39,306 bases of DNA from Acidobacteriota bacterium (lineage in GTDB: Bacteria; Acidobacteriota; UBA6911; RPQK01; JAJDTT01): assembly GCA_022827025.1 (NCBI GenBank), contig JAJDTT010000302.1, forward strand, positions 1 to 39,306, written 5' to 3'. The notes below the pieces were generated by a model, which was not told the DNA's origin, did no database searches, and saw nothing but the letters and a program-made list of their open reading frames with translations. Shown here piece after piece: positions 6,401 through 15,516 of this stretch. Position 1 is the stretch's first letter; the number at the start of each line of letters is the position of its first letter. The translations under genes were made by a program, and so were the position numbers.

Positions 6401-6840
6401 CTGAGCCGACAGCACGCTGGCGGCGAGTACGTTCAATTAATCTACCGGCGACTCGGCGCAGATGCAAACCAGCCTTCTCCCTGACGCTGTTCTTTCCGAG
6501 AAGTCCCATGGAAACGACAATCCAGCAAGTTGTACTCATCGATCATTTGGAAATTCCACTCGACAAACCTCAGACGGTTCGGTCGACGGAAGATTTCAGT
6601 CGAGGGCGAGACTGTTGCGTATTCCAGCTACCCCACTACGTAAATCATCGGTCACTTGTTTTGGACACCCTGGCACACTCCTCACACGGCATTTTGCCCT
6701 TCTTGACAGCTATTCCGCACCTCTTTATTGTCGGCTGCGTCCAGCCCGCCCGGATAGCTGGTTCGCTCACTTATGCCTGCAGGTCCGGGGCCGCGAGGTC
6801 TTGTGCCGACTGGACTGAGAACCACAGGCTCGAGGTCCGA
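6401..6840. other. Intergenic region without a recognisable gene
   Basis: This 440-base gap separates the divergent NYN gene and the symporter gene. An open frame runs through it on the plus strand from 6508 into the symporter, but its translation has no recognisable domain, is rich in rare-looking Cys/His/Ser mixtures, and lies upstream of a good promoter and ribosome-binding site. It is read as untranslated. The only signal seen is the promoter at 6703-6731. Confidence 0.5.
6703..6731 (+). promoter_or_regulatory. Sigma70-like promoter for the symporter operon
   Basis: A perfect -35 hexamer TTGACA (6703-6708) is followed after exactly 17 bases by TATTGT (6726-6731), which matches the -10 consensus at four of six positions including the first two and last. 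It lies about 110 bases upstream of the TTG start of the symporter. Confidence 0.6.
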
Positions 6841-8331
6841 TTGCAGGGATTCACAGCTCTCGACAACGCCGTCCTCGTCTTCTACCTCGTCCTGGTCGTG
6901 GGGATGGGGTCCTTCTTCTTCCGGGGCCAGCACAACACCGAAGACTACTTCCTGGCCGGCCGGAGGATGCCCTGGGTCGCGGTGGGCGTCTCCATCTTCG
7001 CCTCCCTGTTCTCCGCCATCAGCCTGCTGGGCAGCCCCGGCTGGGTCTACGAGAACGATTTGACCCTGGGACTGACCCTGGTGACCATCCCCATCGTCAC
7101 CCCCATCGTCATCTGGGTGTTCCTGCCCTTCTACCACCGGCTTCGGGTCTTCACGGCCTATGAGTACCTGGAACGGCGATTCGATCCCTCGGTCCGCCTC
7201 GCATCCAGCGTGCTCTTCCTTTTCCTGAGGGGAAGCTACCTGGCTGTCGTGATCTACGCGCCCTCTCTGGTCCTCTCCACCGTCACCGGATTGGAGTTGC
7301 AATGGACCATATTGCTCATCGGCGGGCTGGCGACGCTCTACACCCTCCTGGGCGGAATGAAGGCGGTCATTTGGACCGACGTGGTTCAGGCGGCCGTCCT
7401 GTTCGGCGGACTCATTCTCGTGACGGCCATCCTGATTCTCCGGGTCGACGGAGGCCTGGGAGAAATCGTCGCTGCGGCCTCCCAAGGAGGCCCCTTCCGT
7501 ATTGAAACCAGTTGGAACAGTTGGGCTGAAGTGACGCTGGTGGCGGTCCTCATCAACGGTTTCTTCACCCATCTGTCCATGTACGGCGCGGACCAGATCA
7601 CGCTGCAGCGGTACCTGACCACGCCGACGCTCCGGGCGGGCCGCAATTCCATGATCCTGAATGCGGTCTTGGTCGTCCCGGCCGCCCTGCTGCTCCTCTT
7701 CGTCGGGGGCGCCCTCTACGTCTTCTACCAGCAGTTTCCGGCCCGCCTGGCCGAGGGACTGAAGGGTGACGCCGTCCTTCCCCATTTCGTCGTCCACGAA
7801 CTCCCGGCAGGGATCTCGGGAGTCTTCATCGCGGCCATGTTCGCAGCCGCCATGTCCACCATCGACTCCGCCATCAACTCCCTCTCCACCTCCACGATGA
7901 AGGATCTCTACCAGCGCTATTTTCGGCCCGAGGACGATGAGAGGAGAAATCTGAACGTGTCCCGACTCTTCACCGTCTTCTGGGGCGGCGCGGCCACCGT
8001 GTGTGCCCTTTTTGTCGACTCGTTTTTCACGGGCATCCTGAACGCCTCCAAGACCCTGGCCGGATTCTTCACCGGGAGCCTCCTGGGCATCTTCATCCTG
8101 GGCATGCTCTCGACCCGGACGACGGCCCCCGGAGTCTTGGGCGGCGCCCTGTGCGGGTTTGCCGCCGTGGTGTCGGCCGCCCAGTGGACCTCCATGAATT
8201 TCCTCTGGTACGCCCCGCTGGGCAGTGTCGTCACTTTGGTTACGGGTTACCTGTTGAGCCTCGCAACGACTCGAGTCCCCCTCGGGAAACTGAAAGGCCT
8301 GACCATTCACACCCAGCAAAAGGAAGGGTGA
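6841..8331 (+). CDS. Sodium:solute symporter (SSS/SLC5 family)
   Basis: This is a 496-residue integral membrane transporter with about 13 hydrophobic helices. Family features are the start NAVLVFYLVLVVGMG, the DYFLAGRRMPW motif after helix 1, the LLGGMKAVIWTDVVQ helix, GADQITLQRYLTT and the AAMFAAAMSTIDSAINSLS sodium-site helix. It should import an organic solute with Na+. TTG 6841 is chosen as start because GAGGT lies five bases upstream and homologous symporters begin at this point; reading from 6508 would add 111 unconserved residues. The next gene starts within about 15 bases, so it heads an operon with the aldo/keto reductase and Ldh-type dehydrogenase. The substrate may be a hydroxy acid or sugar acid, judged from neighbours only. 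Confidence 0.85.
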   Translation: MQGFTALDNAVLVFYLVLVVGMGSFFFRGQHNTEDYFLAGRRMPWVAVGVSIFASLFSAISLLGSPGWVYENDLTLGLTLVTIPIVTPIVIWVFLPFYHRLRVFTAYEYLERRFDPSVRLASSVLFLFLRGSYLAVVIYAPSLVLSTVTGLELQWTILLIGGLATLYTLLGGMKAVIWTDVVQAAVLFGGLILVTAILILRVDGGLGEIVAAASQGGPFRIETSWNSWAEVTLVAVLINGFFTHLSMYGADQITLQRYLTTPTLRAGRNSMILNAVLVVPAALLLLFVGGALYVFYQQFPARLAEGLKGDAVLPHFVVHELPAGISGVFIAAMFAAAMSTIDSAINSLSTSTMKDLYQRYFRPEDDERRNLNVSRLFTVFWGGAATVCALFVDSFFTGILNASKTLAGFFTGSLLGIFILGMLSTRTTAPGVLGGALCGFAAVVSAAQWTSMNFLWYAPLGSVVTLVTGYLLSLATTRVPLGKLKGLTIHTQQKEG

Positions 8332-11538: not shown

Positions 11539-12618
11539 ATGAGATTTCGACTCTTGGTGCTGTTGCTGGGCGCCGCCTCCCTGGTTGCGTTCTCCGGCGC
11601 GTCCGGGGATGGTGAAGCCATGATCAGAGAAGCCAATCGTTTCCTGGATTCCCTCTCCGCCATGCAGAAGGCCGTGACCCTGCATTCCTTCGACGGCGCG
11701 AAACGGGTGGAGTGGCACTACTTTCCCGACAGCGGCTACCAGAGGGCTTACGGCTACGCCCGTCCCGGCATCGGCTACAAGTACATGGACGACGAGCAGG
11801 AGAAGCTGGCCCACAACCTGCTGCGGGCCGGTATGAGCGAGCAGGGCTACTCCAAGGTTCAAGGGGTGATCCAACTGGAGGAGATCCTCCGGCTCCTGGA
11901 GAACGACACTTCAGGAAACCGTGACCGGGAAGCGTATTACTACACCGTTTTCGGCAAGCCGTCGGCGACCGGGACCTGGGGCTGGCGGCTGGAAGGGCAC
12001 CATCTTTCGCTGAACTTCACCGTCCGGGACGGAAAGCTGGTCTCCGCCACCCCGGCCTTCTTCGGCGCCAATCCCCACGAAGTCCGCGGAGGACCCGACA
12101 AGGGCCTGAGAGTGCTGGGCCCGGAAGAGGACAAGGCCAAACAGTTGCTGCAGAGTTTGGAGTCCGGACAGCGTGATCTGGCGGTCGTGCAACACGTCGC
12201 ATACAGGGACATCCTGAGCTTCGTCGACAAGCGGGCGCGGCTGGTCAACGAACCTCCCGGGCTGGCAGCCGCGGAGCTCACCGATGAGCAGTACCAGGCG
12301 CTGAGAAGCCTCGTGCGGGAGTATGCCGCCAACGGGTCCGCCACCATCACCAAGGGGAGAATGGATCGCTTCGACGGGACGGCCAGGGAGAAGATCCACT
12401 TCGCCTGGGCCGGAGGGACCAAGCCCGGAGAAGGGGTCTACTACAGGGTCCAGACGCCCGATTTTCTCATCGAATACGCCAACACCCAGAACCGGGCCAA
12501 CCACAGCCACACGGTCTGGCGAGACTGGAACGGGGACTTCGGACACGATGTCCTGGCCGCCCATTACCAGGACTACGACCACGGGATCGGCAAGCCGGTC
12601 TACCGGGCAGCGAAATAG
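11539..12618 (+). CDS. Exported DUF3500 protein
   Basis: This 359-residue protein starts with a signal peptide (MRFRLLVLLLGAASLVAFSG, cleavage about 20-24) and continues into DUF3500. Family hallmarks are GTWGWRLEGHHLSLNFTV (about 145-162), PAFFGANPHEVRGG, and the C-terminal PDFLIEYANTQNRANHSHTV with WRDWNGDFG. The many conserved His, Asn and Asp residues in that tail could bind metal or a ligand, but no biochemical role is established for the family. GGAGC lies upstream of ATG 11539. It is followed by a symporter and a formylglycine-generating enzyme on the same strand, suggesting a shared uptake or degradation function. Confidence 0.82.
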   Translation: MRFRLLVLLLGAASLVAFSGASGDGEAMIREANRFLDSLSAMQKAVTLHSFDGAKRVEWHYFPDSGYQRAYGYARPGIGYKYMDDEQEKLAHNLLRAGMSEQGYSKVQGVIQLEEILRLLENDTSGNRDREAYYYTVFGKPSATGTWGWRLEGHHLSLNFTVRDGKLVSATPAFFGANPHEVRGGPDKGLRVLGPEEDKAKQLLQSLESGQRDLAVVQHVAYRDILSFVDKRARLVNEPPGLAAAELTDEQYQALRSLVREYAANGSATITKGRMDRFDGTAREKIHFAWAGGTKPGEGVYYRVQTPDFLIEYANTQNRANHSHTVWRDWNGDFGHDVLAAHYQDYDHGIGKPVYRAAK

Positions 12619-12720: not shown

Positions 12721-14514
12721 ATGTTGCTAGCCCTCGACCAGGGCAGACCAGACCGCTTCGATGGCCTCCAATCCATCGACTTCGGGGCCGTCGTCCTCTA
12801 CTTCATCGTGATGTTGATCGCCGGTTACTACTTCAGCAAGAAGCAGAAATCGACGGAAGAGTACTTCATGGCGGGCCGGAGCATGCCCTGGTTCGTGGTG
12901 GGCGTGAGCATGTTCGCCACCCTCCTGTCCACGGTCAGCTACCTCTCCAGCCCCGGCGAGATCATCAAGAACGGTCTGGGCATCTGGGGAGGCCAGATGC
13001 ATATTCCCTTCACCCTGGCGCTGGTCACTCTGGTCCTGATCCCGTTCTTCATGCGCAAGCGTTTCACCAGCGCCTATGAATACCTGGAGGCGCAATACGG
13101 TCTCGGCGCCCGTCTCTTCGCTTCGATCCTGTTCATGCTCAACCGGCTGTTCTGGATGGGGATGATCGTCTACACCGCCTCCTTCGCCATGGTCCGGATG
13201 ACCGGTCTGCCCTTTATCTGGGTGGTGTTGGGAATCGGCTCCATCGCCATCGTCTACACCACCATGGGCGGGATGCGGGCGGTCATCTGGACCGACGTGG
13301 CCCAGTTCGCCATCCTCTTCGCCGGTCTGGCGTTTACCGTGGGATTCGTCTTCTTCGAGACCGGGACCGGTCCCGCCACCTGGTTCAACGACGTGATGCA
13401 GGCGGAGCGGGAACCGCAACCCTTCTTTGCCTTCGACCCCTATGTCCGGGTCAGCCTGCTGGGCATGGCCATCTACGCCATGTTCTGGTGGACCTGCACC
13501 GCCGGATCGGACCAGGTGGCGATCCAACGGTACCTCACCACCGGCTCGGTGCAGGGCGCCCGGCGCTCGTTCGCATCCAATCTCGGCGCCGACATGACCA
13601 TCGCCCTCTCCCTGGGCCTCACCGGAATGGCCCTCTACTCCTTCTACCTGGGACAACTCCCGGGCACGCCCGACCAGGCCTTTCCTCATTTCATCGCCCA
13701 CGGCATGCCCCGCGGACTGGCCGGTTTGGTGGTGGCGGCCCTGTTCTCGGCCGCCATGTCCAGCCTGGACTCGGGGATGCACGGGGTGGCCACGGTATTG
13801 ACCGTCGACTTCTTCCGCCGCCTTCGGAAGAAGGCCCTCGACGCGGCCGCCGAGCTGAAGCTGGCCCGGTTGATCACGATTCTGGCGGGCCTGTTCGCCA
13901 TCGGCTTCTGCCTCTATCTCAATACCATTCCCGAGGAGACCCGGGGCAACCTCTTCGATCTCACCGTTCGGATCAGCAGCTACATCACGGGGGCCTTGGG
14001 CGGCATGTTCTTTGCAGCATTCCTGAAATTCCGCTGTAGCGGCCGGATGATGATCGTATCGGGATTCCTGGGCATGGCCGTAGGCTTCTATCTCTCCCTC
14101 GCCACCTGGTTGCAGACCCACCCGGACATCTTCATCTACGTGGACGCGCCCGGTCAGACGGAGACGGTGCGCTGGGAGCCGTCAAGCGACCGGGACAACG
14201 TCATCGGATCGGAATCAGGGGCGAACGAATTTGTCCTATCCGGTGAGGGGGTGGCCGACCGTCATGCCGTCGTCCGGAGAACCGAAAGCGGCTGGCGGTT
14301 GGAGGGCCTGGCCGAAACCCGGATCAACGACGAGCCGGTCACTCAAACCCAGATCCGGCCCGACGATTCCATCGAGATCGCCGGCAACCGCCTGCTGGTC
14401 AAGGTCAAGGCCGTCTCCTGGATGTGGGTGCTTCCCAGTTCCTGCCTGGTGACCCTCTTCTCGGCGGGACTTCTGGGATTGTTCAACCGGCGGCGCCGGG
14501 CCGCCCCCGCGTAA
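12721..14514 (+). CDS. Sodium:solute symporter with FHA-like domain in the last loop
   Basis: This 597-residue SLC5-type transporter is paralogous to the one at 6841: STEEYFMAGRSMPWFVVGVS, TTMGGMRAVIWTDVAQ, GSDQVAIQRYLTT and AALFSAAMSSLDSGMHG are all in the expected order. It is about 100 residues longer because residues about 480-563, between the last two hydrophobic helices, form an FHA-like module: VIGSES, then FVLSGEGVADRHAVV, GWRLEGL, INDEPV and IRPDDSIEIAGNRLLV. The usual phosphothreonine-contacting Ser before Arg-His is replaced, so phosphopeptide binding may be lost. By the standard topology of the family this loop would face the periplasm. The final helix WMWVLPSSCLVTLFSAGLLG follows. 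AGGAG lies eight bases before ATG 12721. Confidence 0.87.
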   Translation: MLLALDQGRPDRFDGLQSIDFGAVVLYFIVMLIAGYYFSKKQKSTEEYFMAGRSMPWFVVGVSMFATLLSTVSYLSSPGEIIKNGLGIWGGQMHIPFTLALVTLVLIPFFMRKRFTSAYEYLEAQYGLGARLFASILFMLNRLFWMGMIVYTASFAMVRMTGLPFIWVVLGIGSIAIVYTTMGGMRAVIWTDVAQFAILFAGLAFTVGFVFFETGTGPATWFNDVMQAEREPQPFFAFDPYVRVSLLGMAIYAMFWWTCTAGSDQVAIQRYLTTGSVQGARRSFASNLGADMTIALSLGLTGMALYSFYLGQLPGTPDQAFPHFIAHGMPRGLAGLVVAALFSAAMSSLDSGMHGVATVLTVDFFRRLRKKALDAAAELKLARLITILAGLFAIGFCLYLNTIPEETRGNLFDLTVRISSYITGALGGMFFAAFLKFRCSGRMMIVSGFLGMAVGFYLSLATWLQTHPDIFIYVDAPGQTETVRWEPSSDRDNVIGSESGANEFVLSGEGVADRHAVVRRTESGWRLEGLAETRINDEPVTQTQIRPDDSIEIAGNRLLVKVKAVSWMWVLPSSCLVTLFSAGLLGLFNRRRRAAPA

Positions 14515-14520
14515 CGAGCC

Positions 14521-15516
14521 GTGGCAACAGGAGTTGACACTTCCGAACGCCGCCGTGTTCCACCCGGCGGCGCCGTCTTTCCTTCGAAGCCTGGCGCCGG
14601 TGAGTCCGGCAAGTCACGCAGGGCGCCCACAAGGGGCGCCCCTACTCTTCTATGGTCAGTTTGCCTTTTCTGGCTGGCGTTCTCCTCCTGCCGTTCCCTC
14701 CCGGAACTGGCCCCCAAGGAGATGGTCCGTATTCCCGCCGGCACCTATCTCATGGGAACGGACCGGGGTTTTCCGTTTGAAGGCCCGCCGCATCGGGTGA
14801 GCGTCGGTTCCTTTTGGCTGGACCGGTACGAGGTCACGAATCGCCAGTTTCTCACCTTCGTCCAGGAGACCGACCACCGCACCGAGGCCGAGACCTACGG
14901 TTGGTCGGGTGTTTTTTCCGAAAAGGACAATAGCTGGCAACCCGTTACGGGTGCTTCGTGGAGGCATCCCGACGGTCCCGGATCCTCAATCGAGGATCGG
15001 CTGGACCACCCGGTGGTCCAGGTATCGTGGAACGACGCCGTCGCCTACGCCGGTTGGGCCGGTAAGCGGCTGCCAACCGAAGCGGAATGGGAGTGGGCGG
15101 CCCGCGGCGGGTCGGATCAGGGTCCATTTCCTTGGGGCGCCGATCTCAATCCCGGAAAACAGCACATGGCCAACCTCTGGCAGGGGATGTTCCCCTATCG
15201 GCACGAGGTGCTGGACGGGTTCCGCACCACGGCGCCGGTCGGCTCCTTCCCCGCCAACGGCTACGGACTCTACGACATGGCCGGCAACGTGTGGGAATGG
15301 ACCCGGGACTGGTACCGGAATGACTACTACCGACATTCCAGCGGCGTCCGGGACCCGGCGGGTCCCGCAAAAGGGTCCGAAAGGGTGATCCGGGGAGGCT
15401 CCTGGATGTGCAGCGTCAACTATTGCCAAGGCTACCGGGTGGCGGCGCGGCAGAAGACCGCCCCCGATTCGGGCCTGACGAATCTGGGTTTCCGCTGCGC
15501 CCTCGACGCAGACTAG
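14521..15516 (+). CDS. Formylglycine-generating enzyme (SUMF1-like), lipoprotein-like
   Basis: This 331-residue protein activates sulfatases by converting an active-site Cys or Ser to formylglycine. The FGE-sulfatase fold runs from about 68 to the end: MVRIPAGTYLMGTD, DRYEVTNRQFL, HPVVQVSWNDAVAYAGWAGK, LPTEAEWEWAARGG, GNVWEWTRDWY and NLGFRC. The copper-binding redox pair of true FGE is present, C297 and C302 in GGSWMCSVNYCQGYR, unlike many bacterial FGE-like proteins. The start GTG 14521 has no ribosome-binding site; the first 45 residues are odd because a hairpin repeat (14621-14645) is read through as SRRAPTRGAPT. They are followed by a lipobox-like LAFSSC (C57), which suggests export. No sulfatase gene is in the window. 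Its stop shares bases with the stop of hemG. Confidence 0.85.
   Translation: MATGVDTSERRRVPPGGAVFPSKPGAGESGKSRRAPTRGAPTLLWSVCLFWLAFSSCRSLPELAPKEMVRIPAGTYLMGTDRGFPFEGPPHRVSVGSFWLDRYEVTNRQFLTFVQETDHRTEAETYGWSGVFSEKDNSWQPVTGASWRHPDGPGSSIEDRLDHPVVQVSWNDAVAYAGWAGKRLPTEAEWEWAARGGSDQGPFPWGADLNPGKQHMANLWQGMFPYRHEVLDGFRTTAPVGSFPANGYGLYDMAGNVWEWTRDWYRNDYYRHSSGVRDPAGPAKGSERVIRGGSWMCSVNYCQGYRVAARQKTAPDSGLTNLGFRCALDAD
14621..14645 (-). repeat. GTAGGGG hairpin repeat, copy R2, inside the FGE reading frame
   Basis: GGGCGCCC-ACAAG-GGGCGCCC plus CTAC is the reverse orientation of the family core. It lies in the 5' part of the formylglycine-generating enzyme frame and encodes RAPTRGAPT there. Either the real translation start lies downstream of it or the repeat has been tolerated as an N-terminal extension. 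Confidence 0.75.

Follow-up and report, generated by a model that had tools for sequence, protein, structure and literature searches.

FHA domains act generally in the cytoplasm, as readers of phosphothreonine. FHA-bearing transporters, SSS proteins with an extra domain and FHA domains that do not bind phosphate are already known. The ABC exporter Rv1747 carries FHA domains, and its activity is damped by a partner docked on one of them; in the SLC5/STAC sensor kinases CbrA and CrbS an SSS domain is likewise joined to a further domain. The phosphothreonine-site residues of PrgH and YscD of type III secretion are poorly conserved, and phosphothreonine binding by these proteins is considered unlikely (PMC3635987). 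Among symporters, uptake by SiaT is abolished when the sites of the Na2 serines are mutated (PMC5931594). TM13 of human SGLT2 is the binding place of an accessory protein, MAP17, and TM11–TM13 lie in an immobile module (PMC10803289). In the open-access literature searched, neither an FHA–symporter fusion nor a documented periplasmic FHA domain was found; the cyanobacterial FHA protein A1557 is labelled in a lumen proteome.

A stretch of 39,306 nucleotides from an Acidobacteriota bacterium, called the window here, encodes an SSS/SLC5-type symporter with an insert that reads as an FHA domain. The features of this gene are as follows.

12721..14514, plus strand: open reading frame of an SSS/SLC5-type symporter with an inserted FHA domain (by profile and predicted fold), 597 aa.
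13759..13773, plus strand: residues 347–351 (SSLDS) with the Na2 serines S347 and S348 kept, from the alignment to SiaT 5NV9.
14128..14412, plus strand: insert, residues ~470–564, between the last two helices (TM12–TM13 of SiaT/PutP), from a clean gap in seven relatives.
14200..14379, plus strand: FHA core, residues 494–553, predicted by PF00498, AlphaFold2 and Foldseek.
14206..14211, plus strand: Gly496-Ser497, Gly retained and phosphate-binding Arg replaced by Ser (Ser in 7/7 inserts; Arg in 36/38 canonical domains).
14254..14265, plus strand: Ala512-Asp513-Arg514-His515, phosphate-binding Ser replaced by Ala and structural His retained (Ala in 7/7 inserts; Ser in 37/38 canonical domains).
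14311..14319, plus strand: residues 531–533, beta6–beta7 loop, where the FHA Asn-Gly is deleted according to the alignment columns.
14419..14493, plus strand: last helix, residues 567–591, basic end predicted inside by hydropathy and positive-inside count.

The protein matched the SSF family of Pfam (PF00474) over residues 48–434 with 130.6 bits against a cut-off of 22.8, and the NCBIfam sodium/solute symporter model TIGR00813 with 193.4 bits, which exceeds the cut-off of 184. The nearest solved structure was SiaT (5NV9; E 8e-54, residues 19–446 aligned). The SSF domain and 13-helix layout are those of SiaT, PutP and human SGLT/SMVT, to which the window protein adds the FHA insert of ~95 residues in the last outer loop. 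When the Na2 and Na3 sites were defined as for SiaT (PMC5931594), the window copy was found to keep the Na2 serines and the Na3 Asp (D192) like other SSS/SLC5 symporters, whereas the equivalent of SiaT Ser345 at Na3 is Asp350. Only SSF, FHA and YscD-type matches were obtained from Pfam; the C-terminus ends 6 residues beyond the last helix, and no STAC, PAS or kinase domain was found by Pfam and hydropathy. SSS paralogues matched at 37 places in the source genome, whereas FHA matched at just two places at E 0.001, the symporter insert being one. HEAT repeats occur in the N-terminal part (~340 residues) of a further SSS protein from the same genome (L044:3998-6577, an open frame of 860 aa).

The initial annotation had placed an FHA pattern at about residues 480–563, between the last two helices of the symporter. 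The location agreed with our alignments, and the extent proved somewhat longer, as listed above, when the limits were set against insert-free relatives of two groups that are 51–54% identical in the core. The insert was absent as a clean gap in the seven relatives, for example GHWLFGLPRLAWMWVIP; in the nearest of them GHWLFGLP leads directly to LAWMWVIP, and the window protein reads ATWLQTHPD-insert-AVSWMWVLP. The 95 aa of the insert are acidic (pI 4.7) and contain no Cys. The alignment also agreed that the SSS paralogue noted at 6841 has only a short loop at the insert site; its open reading frame starts near 6508, with the SSS part from 6838.

The profile search that the initial annotation had proposed gave PF00498 (FHA) with 23.8 bits for the whole protein and 28.2 bits for the isolated stretch (cut-off 20.7). 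The six homologues scored 19.0–25.6 bits as whole proteins, two of them just under this cut-off. Furthermore, a second profile was built from canonical FHA domains alone (21 of the same class, which the Pfam model had retrieved separately). It scored 15.9–26.8 bits on the seven inserts, the highest score among 5,000 shuffled versions of the window insert was 11.6, and six insert-free SSS proteins gave no score. A chance pattern was ruled out by these scores, and a frame or assembly artefact by the retention of the insert in seven genes of four genomes. The insert profile in turn retrieved ordinary FHA domains across the phylum, including FHA-GAF-cyclase proteins and FHA proteins with a helix. 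Structure prediction, also proposed earlier, was run with AlphaFold2 on residues 466–567 with 45 aligned rows and returned an FHA sandwich (pLDDT 90.4, pTM 0.81), a model that shares evidence with the profile match, as canonical FHA rows were included in the alignment. The 50 matches listed by Foldseek against the PDB were all FHA proteins or FHA-type secretion domains, with TM-scores up to 0.82 by query. In the full-length AlphaFold2 model from 14 sequences, the insert had a pLDDT of about 33. The SctD domain of type III secretion was rejected, both of its models scoring below cut-off (TIGR02500, 13.2 against 86 bits; PF16697, 31.9 against 33.2 bits). By profile and predicted fold, the insert is an FHA domain.

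The phosphothreonine site was compared between the seven inserts and 38 canonical FHA domains of the phylum, with the roles of its residues taken as for Rv1747 and Rad53 (PMC5549992). The structural Gly and His were each present in 45/45 sequences. At Asn-Gly, three columns are deleted in the four orthologues and replaced in the three paralogues. The replacement of the key Ser, reported in the initial annotation, was thus found as Ser to Ala, and that description was incomplete, as the Arg and Asn are lost too. Because Arg, Ser and Asn-Gly are lost in 7/7 inserts, classical phosphothreonine binding by the insert is unlikely. Apical positions V511, A512, R514, H515, L530–E532 and R534 are conserved between both groups. 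In another genome of the phylum, an FHA domain (L058:1498-1770) reads LGS and IASRHA, with the same Arg to Ser and Ser to Ala changes as the insert; its phosphate site was apparently lost independently.

Hydropathy gave 13 hydrophobic segments in the protein. The predicted inside loops contain 16 K+R and 5 D+E, the outside loops without the insert contain 6 K+R and 11 D+E, and the C-terminal RRRR is predicted inside. The N-terminus of SSS proteins is outside (PMC7918813). This topology, the SiaT alignment and the positive-inside charge together place the insert outside, so that it is predicted to be extracytoplasmic, in the periplasm, in line with the earlier prediction for this loop.

The gene was found in four congeneric genomes, the orthologues in three of them being 94–95% identical to the window copy. 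A 62% paralogue was present in three congeneric genomes, in all cases with the FHA insert, and its places and those of an adjoining gene are given below.

L001:4920-6713, minus strand: FHA-bearing paralogue.
L033:5023-6816, plus strand: FHA-bearing paralogue.
L034:5018-6811, minus strand: FHA-bearing paralogue.
L055:8432-9274 and L001:4062-4895: PPK2 polyphosphate kinase directly 3' of the FHA paralogue in two genomes, at about 13–21 bp.

In the core tree, the seven FHA-bearing rows formed one clade (support 100/98), and the simplest account is therefore a single gain before the duplication, in the ancestor of both paralogous groups, in one Acidobacteriota genus. Within each group, dN/dS was mostly 0.12–0.22 for the insert, one pair being unreliable because its insert dS was 0.045, and 0.06–0.12 for the core. 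The evolutionary rate of the insert is two to three times that of the core, and the insert is under purifying selection; 41/95 of its positions are invariant. Both Na2 serines are replaced by Ala in 3/3 paralogue rows (TAMAALDSS against AAMSSLDSG), and therefore this copy may have lost Na+ coupling or may act as a sensor.

The survey for the same insertion, likewise suggested by the initial annotation, was made with the insert profile on 396 genomes of the phylum, which include the four of the genus; the insert was not found at the last-loop site in the 392 others. The matches listed outside the genus cover only the FHA part, before the last helix (profile positions 14–119), and the 16 loci examined there were not SSS proteins. 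As it used two short motifs, a scan of 84,980 species genomes reaches only close relatives; it gave three loci. An Acidobacteriota MAG has two of these, and the third is in a MAG labelled as Aminicenantes. No FHA–symporter was found in the viral contigs searched. Among the genomes sampled, a non-exhaustive set, the combination is confined to one genus.

The genes in this part of the window are all on the plus strand, in the order SSS, aldo/keto reductase, Ldh_2, DUF3500, SSS-FHA and FGE-like, with gaps of 102 bp upstream and 6 bp downstream of the SSS-FHA gene. Its two neighbours are given below.

11539..12618, plus strand: DUF3500 protein (PF12006, 285 bits), upstream, with a signal-peptide-like N-terminus as read from the sequence.
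14521..15516, plus strand: FGE/sulfatase-modifying-factor-like protein (PF03781, 281 bits), downstream, with a lipobox-like N-terminus.

The gene order around SSS-FHA is conserved in congeneric genomes, DUF3500 and FGE-like being syntenic in three of them (G001–G003), and an FGE-like orthologue has the lipobox-like LSSC. Judged by their N-termini, both neighbours look exported, and the FGE-like protein is possibly an exported lipoprotein form. It also contains a cysteine pair, CSVNYC, which presumably resembles the active site of the formylglycine-generating enzyme. Elsewhere in the source genome (G000:C301:33609-34589), DUF3500 adjoins an SSS gene of 515 aa, too short to contain the insert, and in a further genome (G009) it stands beside an SSS fragment, in the order of the source genome. 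DUF3500 as an FHA-specific partner was ruled out as a general rule by this pairing with an insert-free SSS gene. Because the FHA paralogue adjoins instead PPK2 and, on its other side, a metallophosphoesterase gene, neither DUF3500 nor FGE-like can be a general partner.

We propose that an FHA domain was inserted once into the last extracytoplasmic loop of the symporter, prior to the gene duplication, and that its fold was retained and its phosphothreonine site dismantled. In the periplasm the domain would be carried by the last helices as an immobile scaffold, and its surface would serve for phosphate-independent protein docking or self-association. The symporter could be held beside an exported partner, DUF3500 and the FGE-like lipoprotein being the candidates for the window copy; alternatively the domain could stabilise an oligomer, in either case with no switching by phosphorylation. 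As the phosphate-recognition residues are lost, the probable task of the FHA domain is to dock or steady a periplasmic component. Its loop joins the last two helices, which in SGLT2 belong to the immobile module, and the scaffold would therefore carry it; a phosphate-independent docking or self-association module facing exported partners appears to be its most likely role, with a probability of about one half. The faster evolution of the insert than of the core, its low pLDDT in the full-length model and the different neighbours of the FHA paralogue weigh against this role.

The initial annotation had suggested a ligand or protein sensor attached to the transporter. Direct sensing of a small ligand gained no support: the predicted place on the scaffold and the dismantled phosphate site fit docking or stabilising better. 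A periplasmic FHA domain that binds a small molecule or peptide and alters transport, as a transceptor, would agree with the outward orientation, with the apical positions that are conserved between the groups despite the loss of phosphate residues, and with the paralogous group having Ala at S347 and S348, which fits a non-transporting sensor. However, we know of no FHA domain that binds small ligands. With no signalling domain fused, no regulator gene seen adjoining the symporter and the last helices in the immobile module of SGLT2 (PMC10803289), we consider such a sensor rather unlikely. The extracytoplasmic domain might also have become a receptor that recognises an exported partner or ligand without phosphate and controls the Na+ symporter, while one paralogue, on losing its Na2 serines, gave up transport and became a sensor; this is doubtful too, if less so.

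Chance insertion of a domain that folds, has little function and is tolerated by selection would account for its presence in one genus only, its faster evolution than the core and its decayed phosphate site; yet it is kept in two paralogous groups and four genomes, with dN/dS mostly 0.12–0.22 and 41/95 positions invariant, which makes mere decoration less probable than the sensor. The domain might also act as an extracytoplasmic lid that shields the outer vestibule or makes it narrower and adjusts the access of substrate, as it lies on the outer side on two short linkers whose strands are at the domain ends. Its attachment is on peripheral scaffold helices, the gating helices being elsewhere, and no confident full-length model sets it above the vestibule, so that a lid ranks behind even decoration. 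That the loop is cytoplasmic and the FHA domain an ordinary interaction module like that of Rv1747 (PMC5549992) would suit the general location of FHA domains; the topology of the SSS family, the positive-inside counts and the lost phosphothreonine residues speak against it and leave it very improbable.

A periplasmic docking or self-association module, the role that we favour, can be set beside the described systems. The FHA domains of FhaA, GarA, OdhI and Rv1747 (FHA I), which were the top Foldseek matches, share the beta sandwich and the signature Gly and His with the insert, which differs from them in having no phosphothreonine Arg, Ser or Asn-Gly; it differs from canonical bacterial FHA domains in its predicted extracytoplasmic place inside a transporter loop. 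SctD/YscD/PrgH/MxiG resemble it in the FHA fold, the poorly conserved phosphate residues and the weak PF16697 match, but the insert is predicted on the opposite side of the membrane, and no secretion genes were seen adjoining the symporter. Rv1747 is unlike the window symporter in belonging to another transporter family and in its phosphothreonine dependence, with Rv2623 as the partner. The additional domains of CbrA and CrbS are C-terminal and cytoplasmic, and the window protein has none of their STAC, PAS or kinase domains. If the proposed role is true, the FHA fold, stripped of its phosphate site and set on the outer face of a transporter, would have found a new use as an interaction surface in the periplasm, and extracytoplasmic insertion would join the C-terminal cytoplasmic STAC/kinase fusions as a route by which SSS proteins gain domains.
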